Positions 1,249 to 12,960 of a DNA stretch of 26,303 bases are shown here, in pieces. Source of the DNA: a virus. A model generated the notes under the pieces. It was not told the DNA's origin. It did no database searches and saw nothing but the letters and a program-made list of their open reading frames with translations. The translations under genes were made by a program, and so were the position numbers. The stretch lies in IMG/VR virus record IMGVR_UViG_3300027987_000356, positions 1 to 26,303 of that record, one strand, 5' to 3'. The stretch's first letter is position 1. Every line of letters begins with the position of its first letter.

Positions 1249-1487
1249 TGCAGGTCTCCTTCGCGCTCGCGTTCTATGACAGTGGTCGGATGCTGGACGA
1301 TGAGCTTGAGCTCCTTGAGCGCCTCCGTGTTCCGATCGATGGCGGCCACGAGTGCGGCGGCGCAGTCGTACAGGGCGACTCTGTCGAAGATCGTTCTTTC
1401 GCTGAAGTTATCGGGATCGTTGTTGATCCGATCGGACTGATTTTGCAGCTCTTCTGCGGTCATAGGCTTGGGCGTGTTATCGGTCAT
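1245..1487 (-). CDS. Hypothetical phage protein, 80 aa
   Basis: ATG at 1487 is preceded by GAAGGAGAC, a strong ribosome binding site; the longer frame upstream overlaps the next gene and was not used. The N-terminal third is polar and rich in Asn, Asp, Gln and Glu (residues 1-30). Residues 40-65 look like a single amphipathic helix (DCAAALVAAIDRNTEALKEL), and the end is charged. This resembles small phage helical-bundle proteins, but no family is named. Its TGA lies inside the start of the 28-residue membrane peptide. Confidence 0.6.
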   Translation of the reverse strand: MTDNTPKPMTAEELQNQSDRINNDPDNFSERTIFDRVALYDCAAALVAAIDRNTEALKELKLIVQHPTTVIEREREGDLQ

Positions 1488-1812
1488 TAGGGTCTCCTTC
1501 CCCTCTGATCTGGGCTGCAGACCTAGCGCCTTCTCGGATATATCTCCGAAGAGGCGCTTTGAGCTCCCATCCAGCGGGTATGCATTCCTCGACAAGTTGC
1601 TCGCATCGCTTGCGTTCCTGCTGCACGGCGCCCTCCAGTTCGATCGCGCGGCGGGCGGCGGCGATGAGGGCAAATGCGTGGTGCACTAGCGCCCCACGCA
1701 GCTCCGCAGCATCCAGATGGTTCTCTGCGAAGCTCCCCGTCAGTGCTGCCTTCGCCAACCGCTCCAGCTCATCGAGTTCGGATGGGGTGAGTGGACGTTC
1801 AGGAGCAGGCAT
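1477..1812 (-). CDS. Hypothetical helical phage protein, 111 aa
   Basis: The preferred start is ATG at 1812; a TTG two codons upstream (1818) is also in frame. The start lies inside the 3' end of the 33-residue membrane peptide (14-base overlap) with no strong ribosome binding site, so translation probably depends on coupling. The product is largely helical: a short Pro-rich start, a helix from about residue 10 (SELDELERLAKAAL), a long Ala/Glu/Arg helix at about 38-75 and a basic C-terminus. One Cys pair (CEQLVEEC) sits near residue 75. No known domain is recognised. Confidence 0.55.
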   Translation of the reverse strand: MPAPERPLTPSELDELERLAKAALTGSFAENHLDAAELRGALVHHAFALIAAARRAIELEGAVQQERKRCEQLVEECIPAGWELKAPLRRYIREGARSAAQIRGEGDPNDR

Positions 1813-1900
1813 AGGCAAGTCCGATAATCATGATGGCCAGGAAGGTCAGAATCATCGCTGTATGGATGAGGTCTGCCTTGTCCTGAGGGTCCATGTCCAT
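1799..1900 (-). CDS. Single-span membrane peptide, 33 aa
   Basis: ATG at 1900 has a GAGGAGAAG ribosome binding site that doubles as the last codons of the upstream gene, whose TGA is two bases away. An acidic N-terminus of about 11 residues (MDMDPQDKADL) is followed by one hydrophobic helix running nearly to the C-terminus (HTAMILTFLAIMIIGLAYAC, residues 14-32). This is typical of tiny bitopic phage membrane proteins, which include regulators of lysis, of host membrane enzymes and of superinfection. Nothing in the sequence chooses between these. Confidence 0.5.
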   Translation of the reverse strand: MDMDPQDKADLIHTAMILTFLAIMIIGLAYACS

Positions 1901-1902
1901 TT

Positions 1903-2220
1903 TCACTTCTCCTCTGCGAGCGCCAGGGCGGCGCGGGCTTGCTCGATGGCAGACGATTCCCGCGAGAATGCGGGCAATTTGTCCACGAGTTCGACGCACG
2001 CCCCCAACGCCTCCACGAGAGCGCCGTGGGCGTTGACTGCGCGGACGATGAGTTCGGCATTTGCGTGGTTCTCTGCGTCTACGGCTTCCGTATCTCGGGA
2101 TGAGGTATACCCAGCGCAAGCGGCCACGAGTCGCTCTCCGCTCCACACATGGCCGGCGACCTGCGTATTGCGTGGCGTCCGCGTGGTCCAGGGCAGCGGG
2201 CTGTGCTTCTCGCTACTCAT
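1903..2220 (-). CDS. Hypothetical phage protein, 105 aa, with a tail shared with its neighbour
   Basis: ATG at 2220 has an AAAGGAG ribosome binding site; the longer frame extends into the upstream gene and was rejected. Residues 1-40 have a SPLPW motif and strand-like polar sequence. The C-terminal half is helical: HANAELIVRAVNAHGALVEA, a second helix, then ARAALALAEEK at the end. The pattern ANAxLIVRAVNAHxxLVEAL recurs in many phage hypothetical proteins as I remember them. The upstream gene ends with a related pattern, so the two look like paralogues or share an exchanged module. Function unknown. Confidence 0.65.
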   Translation of the reverse strand: MSSEKHSPLPWTTRTPRNTQVAGHVWSGERLVAACAGYTSSRDTEAVDAENHANAELIVRAVNAHGALVEALGACVELVDKLPAFSRESSAIEQARAALALAEEK

Positions 2221-2605
2221 CGTCGGCTCCTTTGGCGAGCGCCAGGGCGGCGCGGGCTTTGGCAAGAAGCCCCGCGTCGATTTCGTCCGGAGTGACGAAG
2301 AGTCCCTCGGACCGCTGATCTGCGACTTCGCACTCGATGAACGCGACGCAATCGCCGAGCGCCTCCACGAGAGCGTCGTGTGCGTTGTGCTCGCGGACGA
2401 TCTGCTGGCGCCGACAGTCGCACTGATGCACGACGGCTTGCAGGAGATCCGGTAGGTGATCGAGCAGCTCAGCCTCCAGCTCGCGCCACCGGAAGATCGA
2501 GAAGGGCTTGGCGAGTGCAGCCTCTACGCTCATAGTGATCATCTCTCGTAACACTTCCGCGAGTCTCTCTTCTGGGGTTGGCTCGGTAATGGTCTTCTCG
2601 CTCAT
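2213..2605 (-). CDS. Hypothetical phage protein, 130 aa, related C-terminus to the next gene
   Basis: ATG at 2605 sits behind GCAGGGAGAC, the same leader used at 1013; the in-frame extension to 2650 crosses the intergenic hairpin side and was not used. The N-terminal half is an acidic helix (PTPEERLAEVLREMITMSV) and an aromatic segment (FSIFRWRELEAELLDHLPDL). A cluster HQCDCRR lies near residue 75. The C-terminal half shares NAHxALVEALGxCV and ARAALALA with the following gene. The 3' end overlaps that gene by eight bases. No enzyme motif is visible. Confidence 0.62.
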   Translation of the reverse strand: MSEKTITEPTPEERLAEVLREMITMSVEAALAKPFSIFRWRELEAELLDHLPDLLQAVVHQCDCRRQQIVREHNAHDALVEALGDCVAFIECEVADQRSEGLFVTPDEIDAGLLAKARAALALAKGADDE

Positions 2606-2654
2606 GCTGTCTCCCTGCGGCATCGCCGCACGTATTGAACGGTCATCCACGGGA

Positions 2655-2677
2655 AGCGCTGCCGAGGGCGCAGCGCT
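2655..2677. other. Perfect 8-bp inverted repeat between leftward genes
   Basis: AGCGCTGC at 2655-2662 pairs exactly with GCAGCGCT at 2670-2677 around a 7-base loop. It begins at the stop codon of the 61-residue gene on the leftward transcript and is followed by about 50 non-coding bases before the next ATG at 2605. There is no T run after it on either strand, so it is not a canonical intrinsic terminator. It may protect an RNA end or weaken read-through. Confidence 0.45.
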
Positions 2678-2862
2678 CAGTCGATCGGGTCGCTACCTCG
2701 CATGCGGTTGATCATGCGCAGTGCAGCGCGCAAAGCCTCTTCCCTCGCGCGGTACGGTCCAATGTCCTCCCATTGCCCCGTCTTCGACCACGCGATCCGC
2801 GCTTCGTGATCTGTGGAATAGTCCACCTGAATGTCGGAACTCGCGAGAACCCGAGGCTCCAT
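2677..2862 (-). CDS. Hypothetical phage protein, 61 aa
   Basis: ATG at 2862 follows the upstream stop (2865-2867) by two bases and has a GGGGGGAG ribosome binding site. The longer open frame to 3006 lies inside the zinc-finger gene and was rejected. The product has a strand-rich beginning (PRVLASSDIQVDYSTDHEAR), an aromatic middle (WSKTGQWEDIGPY), a short basic helix (AREEALRAALRMINRMR) and an acidic end. The strand-strand-helix order and the WxDxGPY-like turn suggest a compact alpha/beta fold, but I know no match. Confidence 0.6.
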   Translation of the reverse strand: MEPRVLASSDIQVDYSTDHEARIAWSKTGQWEDIGPYRAREEALRAALRMINRMRGSDPID

Positions 2863-2864
2863 GC

Positions 2865-3356
2865 TCACTCCCCCCTCTGCGCGCGCTCGCGCGCCTCCCA
2901 GTCCACATTCTCCGAAGCGGGAGGAATCGCCTTGCAGCTCCTCACGAGATGCCGATACATGCCCGATGCCCCGGCGCCAGACACCCACTTCCCGCACTGC
3001 AAGCAAGACACTCCGAGCGTCGCTCGCACAGGCTTCTCGCGCTTCGCCTTGCTCGCCCTCACGGCACGCGCAGGCTTCGCAGTCCGCCCCCGCTGCACAC
3101 GCTTCCGCGCCGTCTTGCGCGCCGGCCGCTCGACGGGCGCAGCCGCAGGCTCAGCCGAGGGACCGAGCACCGGAACCCGCGTGCAAAGCGCGCTCTCCGG
3201 CAACGTCACGTCTCCCGAAGACGTCGAGACCCGAACTCCCGTGAGCGTGAGCCACTTGAACTCCACCCGCTCCCCAGTGCTCCGCACCCAGAGCTCGCGC
3301 CCGGGCTGGAACCGCACCGCTGCGGAACGCTCAACCGCCATCTGTACCGCCGCCAT
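2865..3356 (-). CDS. C2HC zinc-finger protein with a basic linker, 163 aa
   Basis: ATG at 3356 is two bases from the upstream TGA and has a GGAGGGC ribosome binding site. Three parts are visible. Residues 10-65 are strand-rich and resemble a small beta barrel. Residues 66-115 are disordered, Ala/Pro-rich and then strongly basic with many Arg and Lys. Residues 116-145 carry C118-x2-C121-x14-H136-x4-C141, a zinc-finger pattern with Tyr-Arg before the His. An acidic tail follows. A zinc finger beside an Arg/Lys-rich linker suggests nucleic-acid binding, perhaps transcriptional control or host-factor capture. This is inference from motif spacing, not a family match. Confidence 0.65.
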   Translation of the reverse strand: MAAVQMAVERSAAVRFQPGRELWVRSTGERVEFKWLTLTGVRVSTSSGDVTLPESALCTRVPVLGPSAEPAAAPVERPARKTARKRVQRGRTAKPARAVRASKAKREKPVRATLGVSCLQCGKWVSGAGASGMYRHLVRSCKAIPPASENVDWEARERAQRGE

Positions 3357-3357
3357 C

Positions 3358-3561
3358 TCAGCAGCCCTCCGCAGCGACGCTCTCAACGTGAGAGCTGCCC
3401 ATGTCGAAAAGCGCGGCCATCTCATCCAGCCAGTGCTGGGCACCCGCGCGTGTTGGCCATAGAAGCGCCCGCTGCGGATCGCAGACCAGTCGATAGTGAT
3501 CCGAGCCCACTTCACTCGTGAGCCAGCGTCCGTCCCGAACGATTCCCCATCGTAGTTCCAT
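3358..3561 (-). CDS. Hypothetical phage protein, 67 aa
   Basis: ATG at 3561 is preceded by GGGAGG and the repeated leader TTCGAGCG. An in-frame ATG at 3696 would add 45 low-complexity residues and overlap the upstream gene by 20 bases; it is the less likely start. The product begins with strand-like sequence (ELRWGIVRDGRWLTSEVGSD), then has an aromatic and basic centre (YRLVCDPQRALLWPTRAGAQ) and a helix with an acidic patch. A small alpha/beta fold is plausible. No function is recognised. Confidence 0.6.
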   Translation of the reverse strand: MELRWGIVRDGRWLTSEVGSDHYRLVCDPQRALLWPTRAGAQHWLDEMAALFDMGSSHVESVAAEGC

Positions 3562-3577
3562 CGCTCGAACCTCCCTG
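3562..3577 (-). promoter_or_regulatory. Repeated translation-start leader, copy 1
   Basis: On the minus strand this reads CAGGGAGGTTCGAGCG directly before ATG 3561. The 13 bases GGAGGTTCGAGCG are identical to copy 2 at 3944-3956. GGAGG is the Shine-Dalgarno core and TTCGAGCG is the 8-base spacer. Conservation of the spacer as well as the core is unusual and suggests duplication or selection on the initiation region. Confidence 0.55.
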
Positions 3578-3607
3578 CCGAGTGCGTCGCTCGGCCTTCC
3601 ATTGCCA

Positions 3608-3624
3608 CCAGCCCCCGCGGCTGG
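3608..3624. other. Short hairpin in the leader of the 67-aa gene
   Basis: CCAGCC at 3608-3613 pairs with GGCTGG at 3619-3624 around five bases. It lies in the 115-base non-coding gap (3562-3676) between two leftward genes, about 50 bases upstream of the ATG at 3561. No T tract follows on either strand. The rest of this gap holds nothing I can name except the repeated start-site leader at 3562-3577. Confidence 0.35.
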
Positions 3625-3676
3625 CCCGTGAGACGCCCTGAGCCTCCCCAGGACGCCCCCCGTGCCCTCCGTAGGC

Positions 3677-3943
3677 TCAGCGAACCTCAATTCCATGGCT
3701 CAGCACGCGACATCCCGGAGTGCGCATCTGCGCAATGGCTGCCACGTAATCCCCCTGCCGGCCGAAAGGATCGGACGGCGCCTGTAGGTCCACGTCTGGA
3801 CCGAGGAGCGCGAACGGCACATGCACGCGCTCGCCTGTACGGGAGCCCTGGATGCGGCTCCAACGCTCCACAAGCCACCCGCGCCGCGTCTGCGTCACCA
3901 CAAACCCTGCCCATTGCCCTCGGCTCTCGAATCGCTTCGCCAT
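3677..3943 (-). CDS. Hypothetical phage protein, 88 aa
   Basis: The preferred start is ATG 3943, behind GAGGAGGTTCGAGCG. An in-frame ATG at 4024 would add 27 residues (ESFAARFARAFIRESERQ and so on) and would sit two bases after the upstream stop, so a 115-residue form is a real alternative. The 88-residue form is strand-rich: residues 10-30 (WAGFVVTQTRRGWLVERWSR), a basic turn, VHVPFALLGPDVDLQAP, then GRQGDYVAAIAQM near the end. This looks like a small beta protein. Family not recognised. Confidence 0.58.
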   Translation of the reverse strand: MAKRFESRGQWAGFVVTQTRRGWLVERWSRIQGSRTGERVHVPFALLGPDVDLQAPSDPFGRQGDYVAAIAQMRTPGCRVLSHGIEVR

Positions 3944-3959
3944 CGCTCGAACCTCCTCG
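3944..3959 (-). promoter_or_regulatory. Repeated translation-start leader, copy 2
   Basis: On the minus strand this reads GCGAGGAGGTTCGAGCG up to ATG 3943, sharing 13 consecutive bases with copy 1. It supports 3943 as a start even though the frame is open upstream. Confidence 0.5.
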
Positions 3960-4026
3960 CGCCCGTGCTGGCGCTCGCTCTCTCGAATGAATGCCCGGGC
4001 AAACCGAGCCGCAAAGCTCTCCATCG

Positions 4027-4203
4027 TCAGACGTCCCGCGGATACCGGAGCTCCCTCTGAACCGAGAGCACGCGCCACCCGTCACCATCCGGTCCGTCCA
4101 GAAACTTCTCTTCCGCATGCTCCGCGCTGTAGGCGCGCGTGCGCCAAGTGAACACCGGAGCCCCCGGCGAAGCGTCGCTGTAGCGAATCACGTACGTGCC
4201 CAC
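4027..4203 (-). CDS. Small conserved-looking phage protein, 58 aa
   Basis: The frame is open upstream to 4443, but that part overlaps the next gene and is Gly/Ala/Arg-rich. GTG at 4203 comes two bases after the upstream TAG (4206-4208) and has GGGGAG about ten bases before it, so it is chosen. The product opens with a strand (TYVIRYSDASPGAPVFTW), then an Arg-rich strand and a helix AYSAEHAEEKFLD, ending in DGWRVLSVQREL. The strand-strand-helix-strand order with a central AEEKF helix recalls small phage proteins of unknown role. Confidence 0.6.
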   Translation of the reverse strand: MGTYVIRYSDASPGAPVFTWRTRAYSAEHAEEKFLDGPDGDGWRVLSVQRELRYPRDV

Positions 4204-4205
4204 GG

Positions 4206-4448
4206 CTACCACTCCCCGAAAGTGCAGACCGGACCGCACCCGCCCGATTGATGCTTGCGCGACGCGAAGTGTGCGTGGATCGCCCGCGAGCGCTCCGCTT
4301 CCATCTCGCGGGCCCGCGCCCCGCTCCACTGCCGAGCCGGAGCCCCAGCCAGCAACTCCTGGCACCGCGGGCAGCTCGGATCCTTCCGCCCAAACGCCAT
4401 CCGGCAGTCCGCCGCGTGCCGCGTCCCCTCTCGCTTCGCCCATGCCAT
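4206..4448 (-). CDS. Conserved Cys/His-rich phage hypothetical protein, 80 aa
   Basis: ATG at 4448 follows GGGAGGTTTGAGCAG. Residues 10-30 (HAADCRMAFGRKDPSCPRCQ), the central APARQ and the end (CGPVCTFGEW) form a pattern I remember from many proteobacterial phage and prophage hypothetical proteins. Cys15, Cys26, Cys29, His58, His60, Cys71 and Cys75 could make one or two zinc sites. The first gene of the leftward operon is often a regulator or host-takeover protein. That role is inferred; the family has no assigned function that I know. Confidence 0.75.
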   Translation of the reverse strand: MAWAKREGTRHAADCRMAFGRKDPSCPRCQELLAGAPARQWSGARAREMEAERSRAIHAHFASRKHQSGGCGPVCTFGEW

Positions 4449-4466
4449 CTGCTCAAACCTCCCTGC
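4449..4466 (-). promoter_or_regulatory. Repeated translation-start leader, copy 3 (diverged)
   Basis: On the minus strand this reads GCAGGGAGGTTTGAGCAG before ATG 4448. It matches copies 1 and 2 in GGAGGTTYGAGC and has one extra spacer base. It is preserved although the codons around it would be read in another phase, which favours a signal at the RNA level. Confidence 0.45.
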
Positions 4467-4548
4467 GGCTGCGTCCGCCGCTCGATTCAGGTACACTATT
4501 GCGAAATACGATCCGCCACGCAAGTGCGAAAAATGAGGAGACACGTAA
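4467..4548. promoter_or_regulatory. Divergent control region between the leftward and rightward early-type genes
   Basis: About 80 bases separate two back-to-back genes. The centre (4490-4512) is clearly richer in A and T than its surroundings and must hold promoters for both sides if they are transcribed from here. A leftward candidate pair is TTGCGT and AATAGT 17 bases apart on the minus strand, which is weak. Two CACGYAAGTG sites lie at 4517-4526 and 4542-4551, the second covering the GTG start at 4549. Confidence 0.45.
4517..4526. promoter_or_regulatory. CACGCAAGTG, candidate operator 1
   Basis: This near-palindrome (CAC-N4-GTG) lies 25 bases before a second site that differs at one base. 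Position and spacing suit an autoregulated ribbon-helix-helix repressor. Operator function is inferred. Confidence 0.35.
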
Positions 4549-4551
4549 GTG
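4542..4551. promoter_or_regulatory. CACGTAAGTG, candidate operator 2 overlapping the GTG start
   Basis: The last three bases are the start codon of the ribbon-helix-helix gene. Sixteen of the 17 bases at 4543-4559 recur at 5288-5304. A bound protein here would block transcription of its own gene. Part of the resemblance could reflect coding sequence. Confidence 0.35.
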
Positions 4552-4821
4552 CCCGGAATCAAAGGACGCAGCGGAAGAAAGCCGGCGCCCGCCGCCGCCA
4601 AGTCGCGACCGTTCGCGACCTACTGGCCCCCGGAGCAGCTGCGCCAGGCCCGCCGCGCAGCGGCCGCGGCCGGCGAACCGCTCGCCGCCTACATCCGGGC
4701 CGCCACCCTCCAGCGGATCGAGCGGGAGACGCAGCCTCCCGCACACCCCGCTCCCCGACCCGCAACCCCGCACGTCGGCTCCCGCGCCGCCGCTGCTCTC
4801 CGCAAGCTGGAAACCGAGTGA
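4549..4821 (+). CDS. Probable ribbon-helix-helix DNA-binding regulator, 90 aa
   Basis: GTG at 4549 has a GAGGAG ribosome binding site at 4535-4540. The N-terminus is MPGIKGRSGRKP, a basic arm common at the front of phage DNA-binding proteins. Residues 20-58 fit a ribbon-helix-helix: a strand (PFATYWP), helix 1 (PEQLRQARRAAAAAG) and helix 2 (EPLAAYIRAATLQRIERE). Such proteins of the Arc/CopG type bind operators as dimers of dimers. A Pro/Ala tail ends the protein. The gene faces a divergent promoter region with tandem CACGYAAGTG sites, so it may control both arms. The fold call rests on pattern alone. Confidence 0.6.
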   Translation: MPGIKGRSGRKPAPAAAKSRPFATYWPPEQLRQARRAAAAAGEPLAAYIRAATLQRIERETQPPAHPAPRPATPHVGSRAAAALRKLETE

Positions 4822-5511: not shown

Positions 5512-5544
5512 TGGGTTACACACATGAGGTGAGAGGTGGGTCGG

Positions 5545-5754
5545 ATGTCGGAGTGGCGTCAGGAGCGATCGCGGGAGACGGCTCGGGAGCAGGGGGACGC
5601 CGGACCTGGAGCGGGTGGACGAGCTCTGGGCGTGCACGGGGTACCGCGGGGGCATCCGCTGCGGGGGTGGGCGCTGGGCCAGGCGAGGGTCGTCCTGGCG
5701 AGGATTAAGGGTGAGCGAGCGCGGCTTCGTGCTGCGCGGGAGGGTTCAGGGTGA
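5545..5754 (+). CDS. Small basic phage protein, 69 aa
   Basis: ATG at 5545 follows purine-rich GAGAGGTGGG. A GTG three codons upstream is possible. The N-terminus is charged and helical (SEWRQERSRETAREQGD), the middle is Gly/Pro-rich and the C-terminus is a basic helix (QARVVLARIKGERARLRAAR). A second frame over 5600-5690 also looks protein-like, so a frameshift cannot be excluded. Its TGA overlaps the next GTG. Function unknown. Confidence 0.45.
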   Translation: MSEWRQERSRETAREQGDAGPGAGGRALGVHGVPRGHPLRGWALGQARVVLARIKGERARLRAAREGSG

Positions 5755-6023
5755 GTCAGTCAGTGGAGGTTCGGTCGAATCGGGAGTCGGTGGCGAAGAT
5801 CCTCGCGTCGCGTCTCTCGGAAGGCTGCACGTCAGGTGAGTCGTGTGACAAGTGTCGGTCGATGATTGAGGGATCGGTGAAGGAGGCTCAGCGTCTGTTC
5901 GGGTATGCGCTGATGCAGGCGCTGGGGTTCGCGCTGGATCGGTCGGCTTCGCCTGCGGTGTTGCGGAACGCGCGCGGGGATACGGCGTCTGTGGATCTGA
6001 TCGAGCGGGTGCTGGAGCAGTGA
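5751..6023 (+). CDS. Hypothetical phage protein with a CxxC pair, 90 aa
   Basis: GTG at 5751 overlaps the previous TGA as GTGA. Residues 1-25 form a helix (RESVAKILASRLSEG). Cys26, Cys32 and Cys35 (CTSGESCDKC) could form a small metal site or a redox pair. A longer helix follows (EAQRLFGYALMQALGFALDR) with enough hydrophobic residues to pack as a dimer. It ends with an acidic helix. It is the last clear gene before the convergent terminator zone. Confidence 0.62.
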   Translation: MSQSVEVRSNRESVAKILASRLSEGCTSGESCDKCRSMIEGSVKEAQRLFGYALMQALGFALDRSASPAVLRNARGDTASVDLIERVLEQ

Positions 6024-6413
6024 GCGGTGTCTCTCGGAGTCCTACGAGGGGGAGTCTGAGGGGGAGGATTCCGGCGTTCGCTCGCGGGCACGAAAAAAGC
6101 CCGCCGAGGGGAGGTGTGGGCTCGACCGGAGTGGCGGAATGCCCCGCGGACCGGTGTTTCGCGTGCGCTCCAGGGCTGTTCGCTGCGCCCCCGCCCCGAT
6201 GGTCACGCCGGCCGTCCCTGCTGCGGGTCTGTCGTCCGACGTGCCGATCCCCGGCGCGGGCGATTCGCGACGGGATCGGGGTTTTTGTCACCGCCTTCCG
6301 CAGAGAGCCAGCCTGAGGCCAATCCGACCTGCCTTGCGTGACGGCCCTGGGGGTGCGACCCGGACCCGGACAGCCGCGGCAGGCGCGCTCCGAGCCCTGG
6401 TGCTGTTCCAGGT
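6024..6413. other. Convergent non-coding zone between rightward and leftward genes
   Basis: About 390 bases separate the 3' ends of two converging gene groups. The left part holds the terminator-like hairpin (6084-6122). In 6123-6413 I see only weak, Arg/Pro-rich frames on both strands without ribosome binding sites of note, and no tRNA, repeat array or mobile element. Confidence 0.45.
6093..6122 (-). terminator. Probable intrinsic terminator for the leftward accessory operon
   Basis: On the minus strand AGCCC (6122-6118) pairs with GGGCT (6102-6098) and is followed at once by TTTTTT (6098-6093). The loop is long (15 bases) and the stem short. A second stem, GCGGGC at 6084-6089 with GCCCGC at 6099-6104, brackets the T run and could act in the opposite direction. 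The site lies exactly where the 5545-6023 and 6414-8217 gene groups converge. Confidence 0.5.
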
Positions 6414-6677
6414 TCAGAGTTGTGCTGCGCTCTCCTCCTTCTGCTGGAGGTAGCGGTCGCGTCGCGCCGAGATCTGCTCTTGGCGCGCGAGGAGTTCAGT
6501 GCGCAGGGCATCGGAGAGATCGGAGACGCGGGCCGGGTGGATGGCCACGCGTCCGCTGCGTCTTCGCCGGCTCGAGAATCGGTCTTTGAAGCGCGGGTCG
6601 TTCGGCTGTTCGCGCGGGGTTTCGAGTTTCTCACCGCACATGCGGCAGTGCGTGATGCTGATCGGCGTGGAGCTCAC
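6414..6677 (-). CDS. Hypothetical phage protein with a CxxC pair, 87 aa
   Basis: GTG at 6677 overlaps the upstream TGA and has AGGAG at a suitable distance. Residues 11-14 are a CRMC pair in a context (THCRMCGEKLETP) typical of half a zinc ribbon. A basic stretch follows (RFKDRFSSRRRRSGR), then a long charged helix (DALRTELLARQEQISARRDR) likely to form a coiled coil. It is the last gene of the leftward accessory operon. A dimer that completes a zinc site is possible but not shown. Confidence 0.6.
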   Translation of the reverse strand: MSSTPISITHCRMCGEKLETPREQPNDPRFKDRFSSRRRRSGRVAIHPARVSDLSDALRTELLARQEQISARRDRYLQQKEESAAQL

Positions 6678-7012: not shown

Positions 7013-7239
7013 GCGGATCCCTCCGCGCCTTCGGGCTTCTCGAGCAGCGCCCAGATCTGATCGGGTGTGTTCGCGAGGTCGAAGAAGCAGCCGGGCGTCT
7101 CGATCGACGCGCACGGTCCATCGGCCGTGAAGTAGATCGACTGGATCTCGTCGATGCGGATGTAGATGATGCGGCCGTGCTTGGACTCGGCGACCAGCCA
7201 GGTTCGATCCTTCAGGTCGGTCGCGAGTCGCGGCGTCAT
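7009..7239 (-). CDS. Small beta-rich phage protein, 76 aa
   Basis: ATG at 7239 overlaps the TGA of the lipoprotein gene and has a weak AAGGT ribosome binding site, so coupling probably matters. The centre is a run of strands (TWLVAESKHGRIIYIRIDEI, QSIYFTADGPCASIETPGC), followed by FFDLANTPDQIWALLEKPE. The pattern of strands and one C-terminal helix suggests a small pleckstrin-like or beta-sandwich fold. No catalytic motif is visible. Confidence 0.6.
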   Translation of the reverse strand: MTPRLATDLKDRTWLVAESKHGRIIYIRIDEIQSIYFTADGPCASIETPGCFFDLANTPDQIWALLEKPEGAEGSA

Positions 7240-7424
7240 CGGTCGACCTTGCAGTGCGGATACCACGCGTAGACGTCGGTGATCCCGCCCTTGCTGTCCA
7301 CGTAACGTTTCGCGAGCTGTCGGTGGACGGCCGGTTCGCAAAGCAGTCGCGGACCGGGCCGATGCACGCAGGCTGCGAGTAGGATCAGCGCGAGGATCGC
7401 GTAGCGCCTCATGCCCGCGTTCAT
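7236..7424 (-). CDS. Small phage lipoprotein, 62 aa
   Basis: ATG at 7424 overlaps the upstream TGA; ATG 7412 is an alternative. After two Arg comes a hydrophobic stretch and a clear lipobox, L-A-A-C, with Cys19 as the likely lipidated residue (ILALILLAACVHRPGP). The mature part of 44 residues has two further Cys and a basic helix (QLAKRYVDSKGG). Lipoproteins of this size in phages include outer-membrane spanin subunits and exclusion proteins. It is less Pro-rich than typical Rz1 and has no overlapping Rz-like gene, so that identity is not claimed. Confidence 0.65.
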   Translation of the reverse strand: MNAGMRRYAILALILLAACVHRPGPRLLCEPAVHRQLAKRYVDSKGGITDVYAWYPHCKVDR

Positions 7425-8574: not shown

Positions 8575-8949
8575 GTGACACTCGCTCCGCGCAACTTTCT
8601 CACGCCGTCCGGCGGCCAGCAGTTCCTAGATCCGCCGGGTGCTGTCGTCGGGGCCACGGTCGGCACTGTGACCACGGCATGGCGTCCGATCCCGCCGTGG
8701 GTGGACCCGGCGTTCACCGTCAACGCTACGCTGAATAGCGGCACGGGCGGCCTGATCTACACGATCGAGGACAGCCCGGACCAGTCCATCGCGGCCGTAG
8801 TCGCCACGGTCACGCTCGCGGCGACGGGCGTGTACGTCGTGGTCGCGAACCGGGCGCTGAGCGCCTACTACCGGGTCAAGTACCAGGTGCTGACCGACGG
8901 TAACTGGAGTTTCTCGTCCTACGAGGCTGGGAAGCGGAGGGTGGCGTAA
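8575..8949 (+). CDS. Probable virion-associated beta protein, 124 aa
   Basis: GTG at 8575 follows GAGGTGACGCC. The whole protein reads as alternating strands with many Val, Thr and Ala (AVVGATVGTVTTAWRPIPPW, AAVVATVTLAATGVYVVVAN), Pro/Gly turns and no long helix. Residues 50-110 resemble a small beta-sandwich of the kind in phage head fibres or tail accessories, including YYRVKYQVLTDGNWSFS. It has no signal peptide, unlike the next gene. The TAA overlaps the next ATG (TAATG). The role is inferred from composition and neighbours. Confidence 0.55.
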   Translation: MTLAPRNFLTPSGGQQFLDPPGAVVGATVGTVTTAWRPIPPWVDPAFTVNATLNSGTGGLIYTIEDSPDQSIAAVVATVTLAATGVYVVVANRALSAYYRVKYQVLTDGNWSFSSYEAGKRRVA

Positions 8950-9596
8950 TGCGTGGCTGGAAAATCCTCGGCATTGCGCTGAGCTCCCTGGCAGCCGGAG
9001 TTGCGCTCGCGCAGCAGCTGCCGTCGCTGGAGTGGGGGCGAGTCACGCTTGTCGGATCCGACGGCGCGACGCAAGCCGGAACCTCCTCCAACCCGCTCAC
9101 GACCACGGGCGGAATACAGTACGCCGAGGACACCGTCGCGGCAGGCGGAGACCTTGTCACGCTCGCGGGCACCTACCGATTCGACACGCCCTTGGCCAGC
9201 GCCGGGAATCTGGACCGCACCGTCCTCATCACCGGGCCGAGCGGCCAGCTCTGGACGGGCCTCATCAACGGCACGACAGCAGTCGGCACCTCGAACCCGC
9301 TCCCGGTTCAAGAGCAGACCGCGACCGGGATCACGCTCTCGAATGTCTCGGTCGCTGCGTCGAGCTTCACCATCGCCGCAGCGAACTCGGCTCGGCTCTC
9401 TCTGGAGTGCTGCAACACGGGACTTGCGACGATCAACGTGAGCAAGGGCACGACGCCTGCGGTTCTGGATCAGACTTCGACGGTGATTTTACCGGGCGCG
9501 TGCTGGCGGGATGAGCCTCCGGTCTACACAGGCGCCGTTTACGGAATCGGCGACCAGGCGGACGGCGCCCTTTATTGCGAGCAGAAGACGCGATGA
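8949..9596 (+). CDS. Probable tail or surface structural protein with an N-terminal signal sequence, 215 aa
   Basis: ATG at 8949 overlaps the previous TAA. Residues 1-21 look like a Sec signal peptide: Arg/Lys start, hydrophobic core (ILGIALSSLAAGVALA) and an A-L-A|Q cleavage site. The mature part is all-beta and rich in Thr, Gly and Ser. The C-terminal domain (about 130-210) resembles a widespread phage structural domain in which RLSLxCxNxGxATINVSKG is followed by a strand and a GAVYGIGDQ-like turn. Four Cys lie in this last domain (ECCN, GACW, LYCE) and could pair as disulfides. Export of a virion component would be unusual; a secreted phage product is the alternative. Confidence 0.55.
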   Translation: MRGWKILGIALSSLAAGVALAQQLPSLEWGRVTLVGSDGATQAGTSSNPLTTTGGIQYAEDTVAAGGDLVTLAGTYRFDTPLASAGNLDRTVLITGPSGQLWTGLINGTTAVGTSNPLPVQEQTATGITLSNVSVAASSFTIAAANSARLSLECCNTGLATINVSKGTTPAVLDQTSTVILPGACWRDEPPVYTGAVYGIGDQADGALYCEQKTR

Positions 9597-9700
9597 CGAG
9601 GATAGCTTCTCGCCTCGAGCGCCTCGCACAGTGGGCCGCGATCCTCGGCGTGATTGCGCTTGCGTTCTGGGCGGGCGTCGTGCAGTGGGTTTGCACCTAG
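9593..9700 (+). CDS. Single-span membrane peptide, 35 aa
   Basis: ATG at 9593 overlaps the previous TGA (ATGA). A basic amphipathic start (TRIASRLERLAQ) leads into one hydrophobic helix rich in Trp (AAILGVIALAFWAGVVQW, residues 15-32) and a terminal Cys. Length, coupling and a single span match other tiny phage membrane peptides. It sits among adhesin-like genes rather than next to an endolysin. A holin-like or regulatory role is possible but unproven. Confidence 0.5.
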   Translation: MTRIASRLERLAQWAAILGVIALAFWAGVVQWVCT

Positions 9701-9715
9701 GGGAGGGGGGACGTC

Positions 9716-9970
9716 ATGCCGAGAATTGGCAGCGCTGAGGAGGTGCTCAAGCAGGTAGAGCCGCGTCGTCAATCCGAGTCCGAGCAGCGTCGTCGCCGAG
9801 CCATTGCCGATCTCGTAGGCGGGAACACGGCTGTGCGCTATCCGGACCGCGACGAGCGCTTCCTGTTCGATTCGATCGCGGACGCGGACCGCGAGATCGG
9901 CCTCCGCGAGGCTCGGAAACTGGACCGGATCCTCGCAGAGGCGGCCGCCAAGGATCGCGAGCAGCCGTGA
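9716..9970 (+). CDS. Hypothetical phage protein, 84 aa
   Basis: ATG at 9716 has GGGGAGGGGGG before it. The product is charged and helical: an early helix (SAEEVLKQVEPRRQ), an Arg-rich run (SEQRRRRAIADL), a short strand region and a long C-terminal helix (DADREIGLREARKLDRILAE). There is no Cys, signal peptide or membrane segment. It resembles small phage helical scaffolding or DNA-binding proteins in composition only. The TGA overlaps the next GTG. Confidence 0.58.
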   Translation: MPRIGSAEEVLKQVEPRRQSESEQRRRRAIADLVGGNTAVRYPDRDERFLFDSIADADREIGLREARKLDRILAEAAAKDREQP

Positions 9971-10173
9971 GCGTCCAGAGCTCGCCGGCGCGCGGGCGGC
10001 CCGTGAAGATGACCAGGGGCCCCCACCGGACCCGCAACGTGGTGTGCCCCGGCTCTGGCTGCGCCGCGGCGCGAGCGGCCGGACGCGCGATGGTGGGAGT
10101 GGCGATCGTGCCCAAGCTGCAGCGCGGCGTGGCGAAATGCCCCGACTGCGGGGCCACCCTCTCGATCAAGTGA
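9967..10173 (+). CDS. Small zinc-ribbon-like protein, 68 aa
   Basis: GTG at 9967 overlaps the TGA before it. A basic arm (ARGRPVKMTRGPHRTRN) precedes C27-x4-C32 and C58-x2-C61, the latter in CPDCGATL, the classic knuckle of a zinc ribbon. The spacing of 25 residues between the pairs is normal for the fold. Zinc ribbons in phages bind nucleic acid or RNA polymerase. Its place among structural genes suggests late-gene control or simply a small accessory role. No specific family is recognised. Confidence 0.6.
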   Translation: MSVQSSPARGRPVKMTRGPHRTRNVVCPGSGCAAARAAGRAMVGVAIVPKLQRGVAKCPDCGATLSIK

Positions 10174-10180
10174 GGCGGCA

Positions 10181-10393
10181 ATGCCCTGGACTCAGGAAAC
10201 CGGAATGCGATCGCCCTGGACGGAAGGGCAGGACGTGCGGCTCGCGCGCGGGCACACGATCCTCGCCTTCGACGTGGCGAAGATCTCGCAGCTCGACCAG
10301 CCCATCAGTGAGCTGACGGGCGGCTCGAGGAGCTCGTGGTCGCCGCCCGAGGATGCGGCCGACCGCACGTGGACGACCGAGGTGGCCCCGTGA
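10181..10393 (+). CDS. Hypothetical phage protein, 70 aa
   Basis: ATG at 10181 is preceded by GAGGCGGC. The product contains two Trp-rich short motifs (PWTQETGMRSPWTEGQD), a strand pair (VRLARGHTILAFDVAKI) and a polar C-terminus (SSWSPPEDAADRTWTTE). The repeated PWT and SWS motifs look like a small beta protein. Its TGA overlaps the GTG of the following adhesin-like gene, so they may be made together. Function unknown; a chaperone or small fibre subunit is only a guess. Confidence 0.5.
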   Translation: MPWTQETGMRSPWTEGQDVRLARGHTILAFDVAKISQLDQPISELTGGSRSSWSPPEDAADRTWTTEVAP

Positions 10394-11517
10394 CGCGCTG
10401 GGCGCTCCTCTGGGCGCTCCTCTGGTCCTTCGCCCTGCCTGCGGGCGCCCAGACGGACATCGGAGACTTCACCGACCTAGACCCGGTCATCGAGACCGCG
10501 AACCTGGCCGACCAGTGGCCCTCGCTGATCCGGGCCGTCCAGGGCCTGGGGGCGATGTTCTCGGCGAAGTACGCGACGGGCACCGAGCCGTCCGACGCGC
10601 TCCACGGCCTGATCCTGGCGGACGAGGCCGGGGTTCTGGCGAAGGCCTGGCGGATCCGGGTCGACACGAACGAGGACGTGCTTTTCGAGCGCAACACCGG
10701 GACCGACGCGACGCCGATCTGGACGACGAAGCTCACGATCGACACCTCGCTGGGGATCGGGACCTTCGCCCCGCTCGTACACCAGCACAACGCGACGGAC
10801 GTGAACGCCGGCACGCTCGCGGACGCCCGGATTTCCCAGAGCTCGGTGGACCAGTACGGGGTCTCGACCCCGACGGCAAACCGGCTGGTCAAGGGCAAGT
10901 CCGGGAGCTCCGAGATCGACGAGGGCTGGATCTCCGAGTTGGGAGTCACTCAGCACGAGGCGGCGCTGTCGATCGCGGGCAGCCAGCTCACCGGCGTTCT
11001 TGGGAAGGCGACGATCTGGATTCCCGCGTCCGCGATGCGCCCAACGACCACGGGTGGGTGCGCGCCGCTTACTCAAGTCGAATTGGCCGCCGGGAAGCCG
11101 GAGCTTCTCGTCATCGACTGCGACGGGACGACCGATGAATCGGTCACGTTCTTTGTCGCGATGCCGCATTCTTGGAACAAGGGGAACATCAGCTTCAAGT
11201 TCTTCTACACCGTAAACGCAGCAGTCAATACTACGGTGCAGTTTTCCCTGGTTCCACTTGCACTGGCGGATGACGACGCGATCGGCGTCACGACATTCTC
11301 CGGAGGCGCTGCGGTATCCGACACCTTCAAGAACACCGCCAATGACCTTGCCGTGTCGCCAGAGAGCGGGGGGTTCGCAGTCGCTGGATCGCCAGGAGAC
11401 GACGAGCTCACGTGGTTCTTACTGCAGCGCAATCCGTCCGTTGACACGACGACTCAGGACGCCCGCCTGCTGGGCATCACGCTGCTCTACACGCGAGACG
11501 CACACAATGACAATTAG
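10390..11517 (+). CDS. Tail fibre-like protein with an N-terminal signal sequence, 375 aa
   Basis: The open frame reaches back to 10336, but GTG at 10390 overlaps the previous TGA and starts a signal-like segment (TRWALLWALLWSFALPAGA|Q, cleavage about residue 20). Residues 35-120 have DANxxLFERN-like beta repeats. About residues 130-155 carry HNATDVNAGTLADARI, a motif seen in many phage fibres. The last 150 residues (IPASAMRPTTTGG... MPHSWNKGNI... VDTTTQDARLLGITLLYT) match in pattern a C-terminal domain I recall from phage fibre or tail proteins. GC falls from about 72% (10501-10620) to 52% (11161-11280), so the C-terminal receptor-binding part may be imported. An export signal on a fibre is unusual. 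Confidence 0.65.
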   Translation: MTRWALLWALLWSFALPAGAQTDIGDFTDLDPVIETANLADQWPSLIRAVQGLGAMFSAKYATGTEPSDALHGLILADEAGVLAKAWRIRVDTNEDVLFERNTGTDATPIWTTKLTIDTSLGIGTFAPLVHQHNATDVNAGTLADARISQSSVDQYGVSTPTANRLVKGKSGSSEIDEGWISELGVTQHEAALSIAGSQLTGVLGKATIWIPASAMRPTTTGGCAPLTQVELAAGKPELLVIDCDGTTDESVTFFVAMPHSWNKGNISFKFFYTVNAAVNTTVQFSLVPLALADDDAIGVTTFSGGAAVSDTFKNTANDLAVSPESGGFAVAGSPGDDELTWFLLQRNPSVDTTTQDARLLGITLLYTRDAHNDN

Positions 11518-12355
11518 GCGATCGCTCTCGCTTCTCTGCCTGATTCCGGCCCTTCTCGCGCAGCTCTCCGTCACGGAGATGATCGGGTTTGGTGCTGAAG
11601 GATCGCCCATCGTTCGGATCGCGATCGGTTCCTCGACGAACGGATACGTCATATGTTCCGCCATTCAAGCGATAGGGATCGATCCCGCAACATCCGTTGC
11701 CGGATCAGCGGTGTTCACGCTTGCGAACGGCGTCATCATCGGCAGCACGAGCACGAGCACTCCGGCGCTTGAGACCGGAGACTGTGGATCGTCGTGGAAG
11801 AGTGCGAATTGGGAACTCCGGATCGTGGTGGCCGGCACCGACTCTGCCCGCATACAGGGGAGGGGCGGGAATGCAGGAGCAGGAAGAGATCGCGCGATCA
11901 GTGATTGCGGTGTCTCATCAACTACGGCGGGAGGTGGAGGAGGAGGCGCAGGATCCAACGCAGGAAGTGGTGCGAGCTTGGGTGGATCCGATGGCACGGC
12001 AACGTCTGGCGGGGCGGGCGGAACAAGCAATCCAGTGGGCACGATCGACTGTTCTGCTGCTCAGAATGGCCAGGACGGCGGTGACGCAATCGAAGCGACG
12101 GACGGGGCTCCAAATCTGATACTGGCTCCGGAGTCAGGTGCCACTCTAGAAGTTTGGGGCGGCGGGGGCGGCGGGGGCGGAAACAATGATGCCTCGCCAT
12201 TCACGGGCGGTGCCGGTGGTTCACCAGGCATGCCTGGTGGAGCGACTCCTGGTGGAGGTACTAGCCCAGGAGACAATGGCCTTGCGTATTTCGAACCAGG
12301 CTCAGCCAGCGTAATCGAGGCCGGTCCGGGTACGATCGACGATCTGGGGACATAA
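11507..12355 (+). CDS. Glycine-rich adhesin-like protein with an N-terminal signal sequence, 282 aa
   Basis: ATG at 11507 overlaps the end of the preceding gene; an in-frame extension inside that gene was rejected. Residues 1-19 resemble a signal sequence (RRSLSLLCLIPALLA|Q). A beta-rich section follows, with Cys at spaced positions (YVICSA, GDCGSS, SDCGVS, IDCSAA). Residues 140-260 are dominated by Gly in runs such as AGGGGGGAGSNAGSG and WGGGGGGGGN. Poly-glycine sandwiches of this kind occur in phage tail-tip adhesins such as the S16 gp38 type. A host-recognition role fits, but the match is by composition. Confidence 0.6.
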   Translation: MTIRRSLSLLCLIPALLAQLSVTEMIGFGAEGSPIVRIAIGSSTNGYVICSAIQAIGIDPATSVAGSAVFTLANGVIIGSTSTSTPALETGDCGSSWKSANWELRIVVAGTDSARIQGRGGNAGAGRDRAISDCGVSSTTAGGGGGGAGSNAGSGASLGGSDGTATSGGAGGTSNPVGTIDCSAAQNGQDGGDAIEATDGAPNLILAPESGATLEVWGGGGGGGGNNDASPFTGGAGGSPGMPGGATPGGGTSPGDNGLAYFEPGSASVIEAGPGTIDDLGT

Positions 12356-12960
12356 TGGCAGGGCGACTTTCTGCGCGACACGCACTCACGAAGAAGGAGA
12401 TCGAGTTCTGCAAGGTCTTCAAGGCCGGACAGGGCAGAGAAGTGAACGCGCAGAAGCGAGAGGCGTACCGCAAGGCGTACTGCCACAGGCGCGGGGATGG
12501 GGCATGGATCTCCTTCGACTTCGACCACGAGCTTCTCACGAAAGAGAAGATCACGCAGCTCATGGCCAAGGCGGAGTCCGTTAGCGGACAAGAGATGCTG
12601 GCCCGAGCGGAAGCTATTCTCGAAGACTACTCCGTTCAGCAGTACATCAAGGAGCTGAGCGAGTCATCGGTCTCTCTGGCAGAGGGCGCGCTCCGCGAGA
12701 ACGTGCTCTTCGGGGACGAGAAGGAAGCGCGCTCCAGCGCGGACAAGATCCTCGGTCGCGAGGAGAAGGCGAGTCGCATCGAAGATATCGCCGAGCTTGC
12801 GCGTGTATTCGACGACGCTGGATTCGAGATCGTGGTGGACCTTCCTCAGGAGGTGCGAGCCGATGTGGTGTGCGACGACTGCGGGGCAGTGAAGCACGTC
12901 TCCCTGCCGGTTGAGGCGGTCGGGAAGTTCGTGTCTCCGTTCAAGCAGGAGGCCGACTGA
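12355..12960 (+). CDS. terS: Probable terminase small subunit, 201 aa
   Basis: ATG at 12355 overlaps the preceding TAA (TAATG), and its TGA overlaps the large subunit start. Residues 10-40 have the terminase small-subunit opening LTKKEIEFCKVFxxG with REAYRKAYC, a predicted helix-turn-helix for pac or cos site binding. The central helices (MLARAEAILEDYSVQQYIKE, DEKEARSSADKILGREEKA) match the oligomerisation region typical of the family. A C-terminal extension carries CDDCG (Cys173, Cys176), which is not standard. Position directly before the ATPase gene strongly supports the call. Confidence 0.75.
   Translation: MAGRLSARHALTKKEIEFCKVFKAGQGREVNAQKREAYRKAYCHRRGDGAWISFDFDHELLTKEKITQLMAKAESVSGQEMLARAEAILEDYSVQQYIKELSESSVSLAEGALRENVLFGDEKEARSSADKILGREEKASRIEDIAELARVFDDAGFEIVVDLPQEVRADVVCDDCGAVKHVSLPVEAVGKFVSPFKQEAD

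Follow-up and report, generated by a model that had tools for sequence, protein, structure and literature searches.

Predicted Sec-type leaders on a fibre, its gp38-like tip and a third protein of a divergent phage

Three genes in the late operon of the IMG/VR virus record IMGVR_UViG_3300027987_000356 begin with a predicted Sec-type signal sequence; the window referred to below is this whole record, 26,303 bases long with a GC content of 65%. Two of the genes encode a tail fibre (P0001, 10390-11517) and its predicted glycine-rich tip adhesin (P0002, 11507-12355), and the third (P0003, 8949-9596) lies upstream of them. The usual view is that the tails and fibres of tailed phages are assembled in the cytoplasm. 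The leaders are genuine sequence features and, to judge from the sequences of the relatives, they are an add-on and not a conserved trait of the family.

A preliminary description of this DNA had placed Sec-type leaders with an Ala-Gln junction at 8949, 10390 and 11507. Coordinates and junctions agree with what we found, and all three leaders pass our signal scan.

8949..9011, + strand: predicted Sec signal peptide of P0003, MRGWKILGIALSSLAAGVALA followed by QQ; matrix score 12.8, cut after residue 21, TAATG overlap
10390..10449, + strand: predicted Sec signal peptide of P0001, MTRWALLWALLWSFALPAGA followed by QT; GTG start, from the scan, GTGA overlap, GAGG upstream
11507..11560, + strand: predicted Sec signal peptide of P0002, MTIRRSLSLLCLIPALLA followed by QL; from the scan, overlapping the P0001 stop (ATGACAATTAG)

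Each start overlaps the stop of the preceding gene (TAATG at 8949, GTGA at 10390 and ATGACAATTAG, an overlap of 11 bases, at 11507). These overlaps, of the kind expected in a tightly packed operon, fix the starts of the three genes. A Shine-Dalgarno-like GGAGG precedes 8949 and a GAGG precedes 10390, while only a weak GAG is found before 11507.

The scan uses a von Heijne-type matrix trained on 45 E. coli signal peptides, and the pass cut-offs of this home-made scan were chosen after the scores of the three leaders were known. An n-, h- and c-region together with a small-x-small site are present in all three leaders, P0002 being weak at the c-region; the n-regions are net positive and the cores free of charge. 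The matrix scores are 12.8 for P0003, 2.1 for P0001 and 0.0 for P0002, and the training set itself gave leave-one-out scores with a median of 9.4, a 5th percentile of 1.0 and a minimum of -0.7. The hydrophobic core (Kyte-Doolittle, 10 residues) reaches 2.2 in P0003, 1.9 in P0001 and 2.80, the highest of the three, in P0002. With the same cut-offs 18 out of 1218 genes (1.5%) from 184 other phage loci pass, and several of these could plausibly be exported; from this base rate the probability of at least three passing genes among the 17 of the window is 0.0019. If only GC-rich loci are used (6 out of 215 genes pass), it is 0.011. For P0002 two further readings of the N-terminus were rejected: that of a lipoprotein, as there is no lipobox, and that of a Tat signal, since an RR is there, yet the following positions misfit the usual motif.

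The fibre and tip genes divide into the following regions.

10450..11001, + strand: shaft or N-terminal part of P0001; match to the tail protein phrog_21962 at residues 127-173 (E 4e-6)
11002..11517, + strand: C-terminal beta-sandwich of P0001 (IWIPASAM...), like a carbohydrate-binding module (CBM), with Cys224 (11059-11061) and Cys244 (11119-11121)
11567..11593, + strand: conserved N-terminal motif SVTEMIGFG of P0002, from the motif scan; Gly at residue 9 after the predicted cut
11606..12193, + strand: gp38-like glycine-rich adhesin region of P0002, mature residues 16-211, from Foldseek and VIA-align

P0001 is a tail fibre ending in a CBM-like domain. In the AlphaFold model the leader is followed by a helix plus low-confidence strands (pLDDT mostly below 60 over 10450..11001), and the C-terminal domain is modelled with pLDDT mostly above 90. 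The latter matches CBM36, CBM6 and CBM35 at Z 11-12, but unrelated beta-sandwiches score nearly as high (10-11), so that this likeness denotes a fold class and not a function. The domain, comprising the last 170 residues, is common to many leaderless phage fibres and shares 28-50%, mostly 35-50%, identity with 63 aligned relatives. In total 166 non-redundant fibres with this domain were collected from other phages and from bacterial contigs, and many of those with the same pair carry typical virion N-terminal modules. The next gene could be read for 97 non-redundant relatives, and 77 out of 92 such genes encode proteins with at least 20% glycine; about 130 downstream genes share an N-terminal tip motif. 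The window has the same order, the tip gene following the fibre gene directly, and the first 11 nt of P0002 lie within P0001.

As judged from its structural model, P0002 is the putative, gp38-like tip adhesin of the P0001 fibre. The gp38 proteins of PP01 and S16 are the top Foldseek matches, and VIA-align gives Z 8.4 for PP01 (9v85) and Z 7.9 for S16 (6f45), all others reaching at most 4.1. The mean confidence of the model is 56.7, with much of the glycine-rich part below 50, and the gp38 match therefore rests on about 100-115 aligned residues. Because a gp38-family match is absent in Pfam, PHROGs and NCBIfam, P0002 is better described as a protein that works like gp38 than as a member of that family. 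To some of the relatives' tip proteins it aligns weakly (E 5e-4). The identity as fibre and glycine-rich adhesin proposed in the preliminary description thus holds for 10390 and 11507, given the relatives of the C-terminal domain and the gp38-like and CBM-like folds. For P0003, "fibre-like" is an impression from composition alone.

In a scan for an x-G-F-G motif SVTEMIGFG is the top-scoring window within P0002 (z 4.6). Its glycine is residue 27 in the uncut protein and residue 9 after the predicted cut, and it is found at residues 8-12 in 81 relatives with a short N-terminus; the predicted cut by signal peptidase I (SPase I) restores the usual tip N-terminus. Most of the relatives' tip genes open with a motif like SFGYQVLGFGSGG or MLRVTQLSGFG, and SFGYQVLGFG also occurs among them. 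An extension of about 20 residues precedes the motif in 50 relatives and is hydrophilic there (best 10-mer at most 0.65, versus 2.8 in P0002). Since hydrophilic extensions are frequent in the tip family, what is special in P0002 is a hydrophobic one ending in an SPase I site. In about 50 tip proteins, for example those of L030, L040, L044 and L058, a basic, hydrophilic extension of about 20 residues stands before SFGYQVLGFG.

The leader of P0002 could not be removed by choosing another start, because there is no start codon between leader and motif: neither ATG, GTG nor TTG occurs from 11507 to codon 25. The in-frame ATG at Met25, near the motif, was considered as the true start and rejected, as it would truncate the conserved motif. 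Moreover, the purine run before it abuts the ATG with the spacer absent, so that no spaced ribosome site is present.

Applying the same scan to the relatives, we found a clear leader in none of the 166 fibres. The two that were flagged, in L110 and L127, are false positives caused by internal start codons. None of the downstream tip genes was flagged in the first scan. A later scan that allowed internal starts flagged the tip gene of L129, whose conserved motif is itself hydrophobic, which makes it an ambiguous case. The leader is also absent in all eight further copies of the P0001 domain from 398 genomes, which are bacterial. The "conserved export signal" of the preliminary description is therefore not borne out in the 166 fibres, the eight bacterial-genome copies or, apart from L129, the tip neighbours. 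That description had named homologues starting downstream of the hydrophobic segment as evidence against a leader. Such homologues are, taken literally, what we see, but the leader of P0002 stands nonetheless, because no downstream start keeps the motif and because the leader directly precedes the residue that is the start Met of the relatives.

Some of the collected loci contain further signal-like N-termini. L129 encodes, besides the glycine-rich tip protein (5521-6462; signal-like stretch SKFRCSLLMTTALVGFMAGAALA followed by APP, overlapping the conserved tip motif), a neighbouring protein similar to the central tail fibre J (1354-4554) that starts with MRRLSLLLATTALIAIPEPAPA followed by APVV. 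In L010 (8079-10742; the same phage is found in L013) consecutive signal-peptide genes follow a leaderless fibre/tip pair, and for the four of them that were tested no Pfam family scored above the cut-off. A tail-collar-domain protein from a bacterial genome (L244, 1336-2013) has a signal-like N-terminus with a Cys immediately after it.

A second phage with a leader in front of a fibre was found in the base-rate scan. L128 (IMG/VR 3300043331_002389), which like the window phage is uncultured, encodes at 2934-4142 a tail-collar fibre with a Sec-type leader (MIRPLRGLAAGLFLLAPIEAYA followed by ASA), matching phrog tail families at E 8e-30. Here the leader directly precedes a fibre module with which leaderless relatives begin, at about residue 1-3: in Pam1 and ctkAd229 the start lies within about three residues of the leader end, and the annotated start in Pam5 is located there. 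Together with the window phage this makes at least two phages with a Sec-type leader directly before a tail-fibre module. The two cases differ in fibre family and phage, and in L128 the tip gene, which lies beside an IWIPASAM-type fibre, is leaderless.

The cysteines noted in the preliminary description are present in the mature parts, four in P0003, two in P0001 and four in P0002. Even numbers fit exported proteins, yet three even counts are weak evidence. More specific is Cys244 of P0001, since Phe occupies this position in 63 out of 63 aligned relatives; Cys224, its possible partner, is a Cys in 30 of the 63. Searched as DNA patterns, the Cys form occurs in the window but in no other IMG/VR contig, and the Phe form in 46 out of 209 collected loci. 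A Cys224-Cys244 disulfide may form in P0001, and the earlier idea of disulfides gains some support from this Cys unique to the window fibre. P0003 has the following mature part.

9012..9596, + strand: mature part of P0003, beta-rich, with 4 Cys (154, 155, 185, 210); no family assigned

No relatives of P0003 were found in IMG/VR, phages, Pfam, NCBIfam, the PDB or the collected loci, and 14 matches in the 398 genomes (E 0.001-0.01) are noise-like.

Sec-type leaders direct export by the Sec system and cutting by SPase I, and periplasmic proteins can form disulfides via DsbA. The leaders, the starts, the fibre and tip identity and the leaderless relatives are read from the sequence; export, cleavage, oxidation and the final location of the proteins we infer. 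The best explanation, to which we would give slightly less than an even chance, is that fibre, tip and the 8949 protein are exported, cut by SPase I, folded outside the cytoplasm and mounted late on virions at lysis. P0001, P0002 and P0003 would have acquired cleavable Sec signal sequences in the window phage, and in the infected cell they would be exported via SecYEG and cut, which would leave P0002 with a normal tip N-terminus. Folding would then take place outside the reducing cytoplasm, where disulfides might form between Cys224 and Cys244 of the fibre and within the even Cys sets of P0002 and P0003. Because the window suggests no outer-membrane secretion system, the proteins would accumulate in the periplasm, meet the virions at lysis and dock on them as late-mounted fibres. 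Late mounting is favoured because the genes directly precede the terminase genes and the pair has virion-type N-terminal modules in relatives. Widened to a Sec-routed fibre and tip that mature with disulfides in the periplasm and are either mounted or freed at lysis, with leader grafts arising more than once (in the window phage and in L128), the proposal remains tentative and falls somewhat short of an even chance.

Several points weigh against late-mounted, exported fibres. That the proteins leave the cytoplasm, and that they are present on or absent from virions, goes beyond what can be read from DNA. The c-region score of P0002 lies under the 5th percentile of the training set. No close relative of the window phage was found that could show leaders conserved inside its own lineage. 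We know of no precedent for an exported fibre that docks late. Finally, virion disulfides are possible without export signals: a large disulfide network is reported for Milano, in a paper whose text is without mention of signal peptides (PMC10811340).

Once export is assumed, a role as free adhesin is nearly as likely as docking. Non-virion adhesins, freed at lysis and occupying receptors on debris or neighbouring cells, or else coating the infected cell, would account for the leaders themselves and would have a parallel in the exported, phage-fibre-like MAT adhesins of the bacterium Bdellovibrio (PMC10769870); the virion might also use a different fibre without a leader, encoded in the missing right end of the phage genome. 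However, the genes stand immediately before the terminase, beside the morphogenetic block, the same pair in relatives belongs to phage genomes, many with typical virion N-terminal modules, and in a diderm host Sec alone would take the proteins no further than the periplasm. Taken by itself, we consider this alternative possible but rather unlikely. Among the consequences drawn in the preliminary description (display, decoy or anchor) we consider the anchor the least probable, given short cores that run into good SPase I sites. All three N-termini do hold a hydrophobic segment that might stay uncut and tie the protein to the virion or, during assembly, to the inner membrane; but the cores of about 11-16 residues are short for membrane anchors, each closes in a small-x-small SPase I-like site and then Gln, and the segment of P0002 precedes a motif that is N-terminal in relatives, which makes such an anchor very improbable. 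Chance hydrophobic stretches or misassigned starts, and hence no export, seem improbable as well, although a little less so. Between 1.5 and 2.8% of phage genes pass the scan anyway, the score of P0002 is weak, and its in-frame ATG at Met25 lies near the motif. Against this, three leaders fall in one operon (P 0.002-0.011), their starts are fixed by overlaps, two of the genes have good ribosome sites, and a start at Met25 would cut the conserved motif, with the purine run touching the ATG.

The pair resembles gp37/gp38 of T-even phages (T2, PP01 and S16 type) in that a fibre gene is followed by a glycine-rich tip gene, and P0002 is predicted to fold as gp38. In T2, gp38 touches gp37 through its N-terminus (PMC12892980). 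Unlike the T-even pair, the window pair has Sec leaders and a CBM-like C-terminal domain on the fibre and lacks a sequence-level gp38 match; moreover, T-even phages are myoviruses, whereas the window phage is probably short-tailed. Closer are the marine and prophage fibres of the IWIPASAM type with their GFG-motif tips, which share the C-terminal domain (35-50% identity), the gene order and the N-terminal tip motif, but these relatives are without a clear leader, and only the window has a Cys where they invariably have Phe. The IWIPASAM domain is also found in gp74 of EBPR siphovirus 2, where no such tip gene lies directly downstream.

The closest documented exported fibre-like proteins are bacterial: the mosaic adhesive trimer (MAT) proteins of Bdellovibrio have signal peptides, are located on the predator surface, and one of them has a tip disulfide (PMC10769870). 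They are products of bacterial genes and form long fibres; behind the signal they have a beta-rich domain of about 130 aa, where the P0001 model shows a helix plus low-confidence strands. The window, in contrast, has phage genes beside the terminase and a separate tip protein. Among phage proteins, the minor coat protein pIII of filamentous phages uses the host Sec system. So do a signal-bearing endolysin (PMC8951688) and the Sec-exported Lom protein (PMC12309495). All of these are Sec users, as the window proteins would be, but none is a receptor-binding fibre or tip of a tailed phage. In the part of the literature that was covered, the phage proteins with reported signal peptides are endolysins, an esterase and Lom, and no fibre of a tailed phage is among them.

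If the proposal is true, host-recognition parts of the window phage may exit the cytoplasm before lysis. Either assembly would then have a second compartment, one with disulfide chemistry, or free receptor-binding protein would act as a pool beside the virion. Phage fibres would also be linked to exported fibre-like adhesins of bacteria such as the MAT proteins.

The record is probably a piece of a larger phage genome. A leftward gene block occupies its first 8 kb, and the rightward late operon sets in at about 8.3 kb and continues through the large terminase (12960), a portal-size protein (14922), the major capsid protein (18243) and tail proteins. The two genes that follow P0002 are:

12355..12960, + strand: next operon gene after P0002, in the position and with the size of a small terminase subunit (from context only), directly upstream of the large terminase; TAATG junction with P0002
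12960-14579: large terminase, match to phrog_2

The genome layout and a match to an internal virion protein suggest a short-tailed phage. It is very divergent: a pattern search in IMG/VR gave zero relatives for its capsid and terminase, and in phage records no relatives were found for the capsid or the 22127 protein and only distant matches for the terminase.

Three small open reading frames (ORFs) were observed in addition. A lipoprotein-like ORF of 62 aa (MNAGMRRYAILALILLAAC followed by VHRPG; 7236-7424, - strand) belongs to the leftward block and overlaps the upstream ORF by 4 bases. The start of a 35-aa ORF with one hydrophobic segment (9593-9700, + strand) overlaps the P0003 stop (ATGA), and a 68-aa ORF (9967-10173, + strand) shows a possible Cys-rich zinc-ribbon pattern (CPGSGC...CPDC) and a weak match to phrog_6601.

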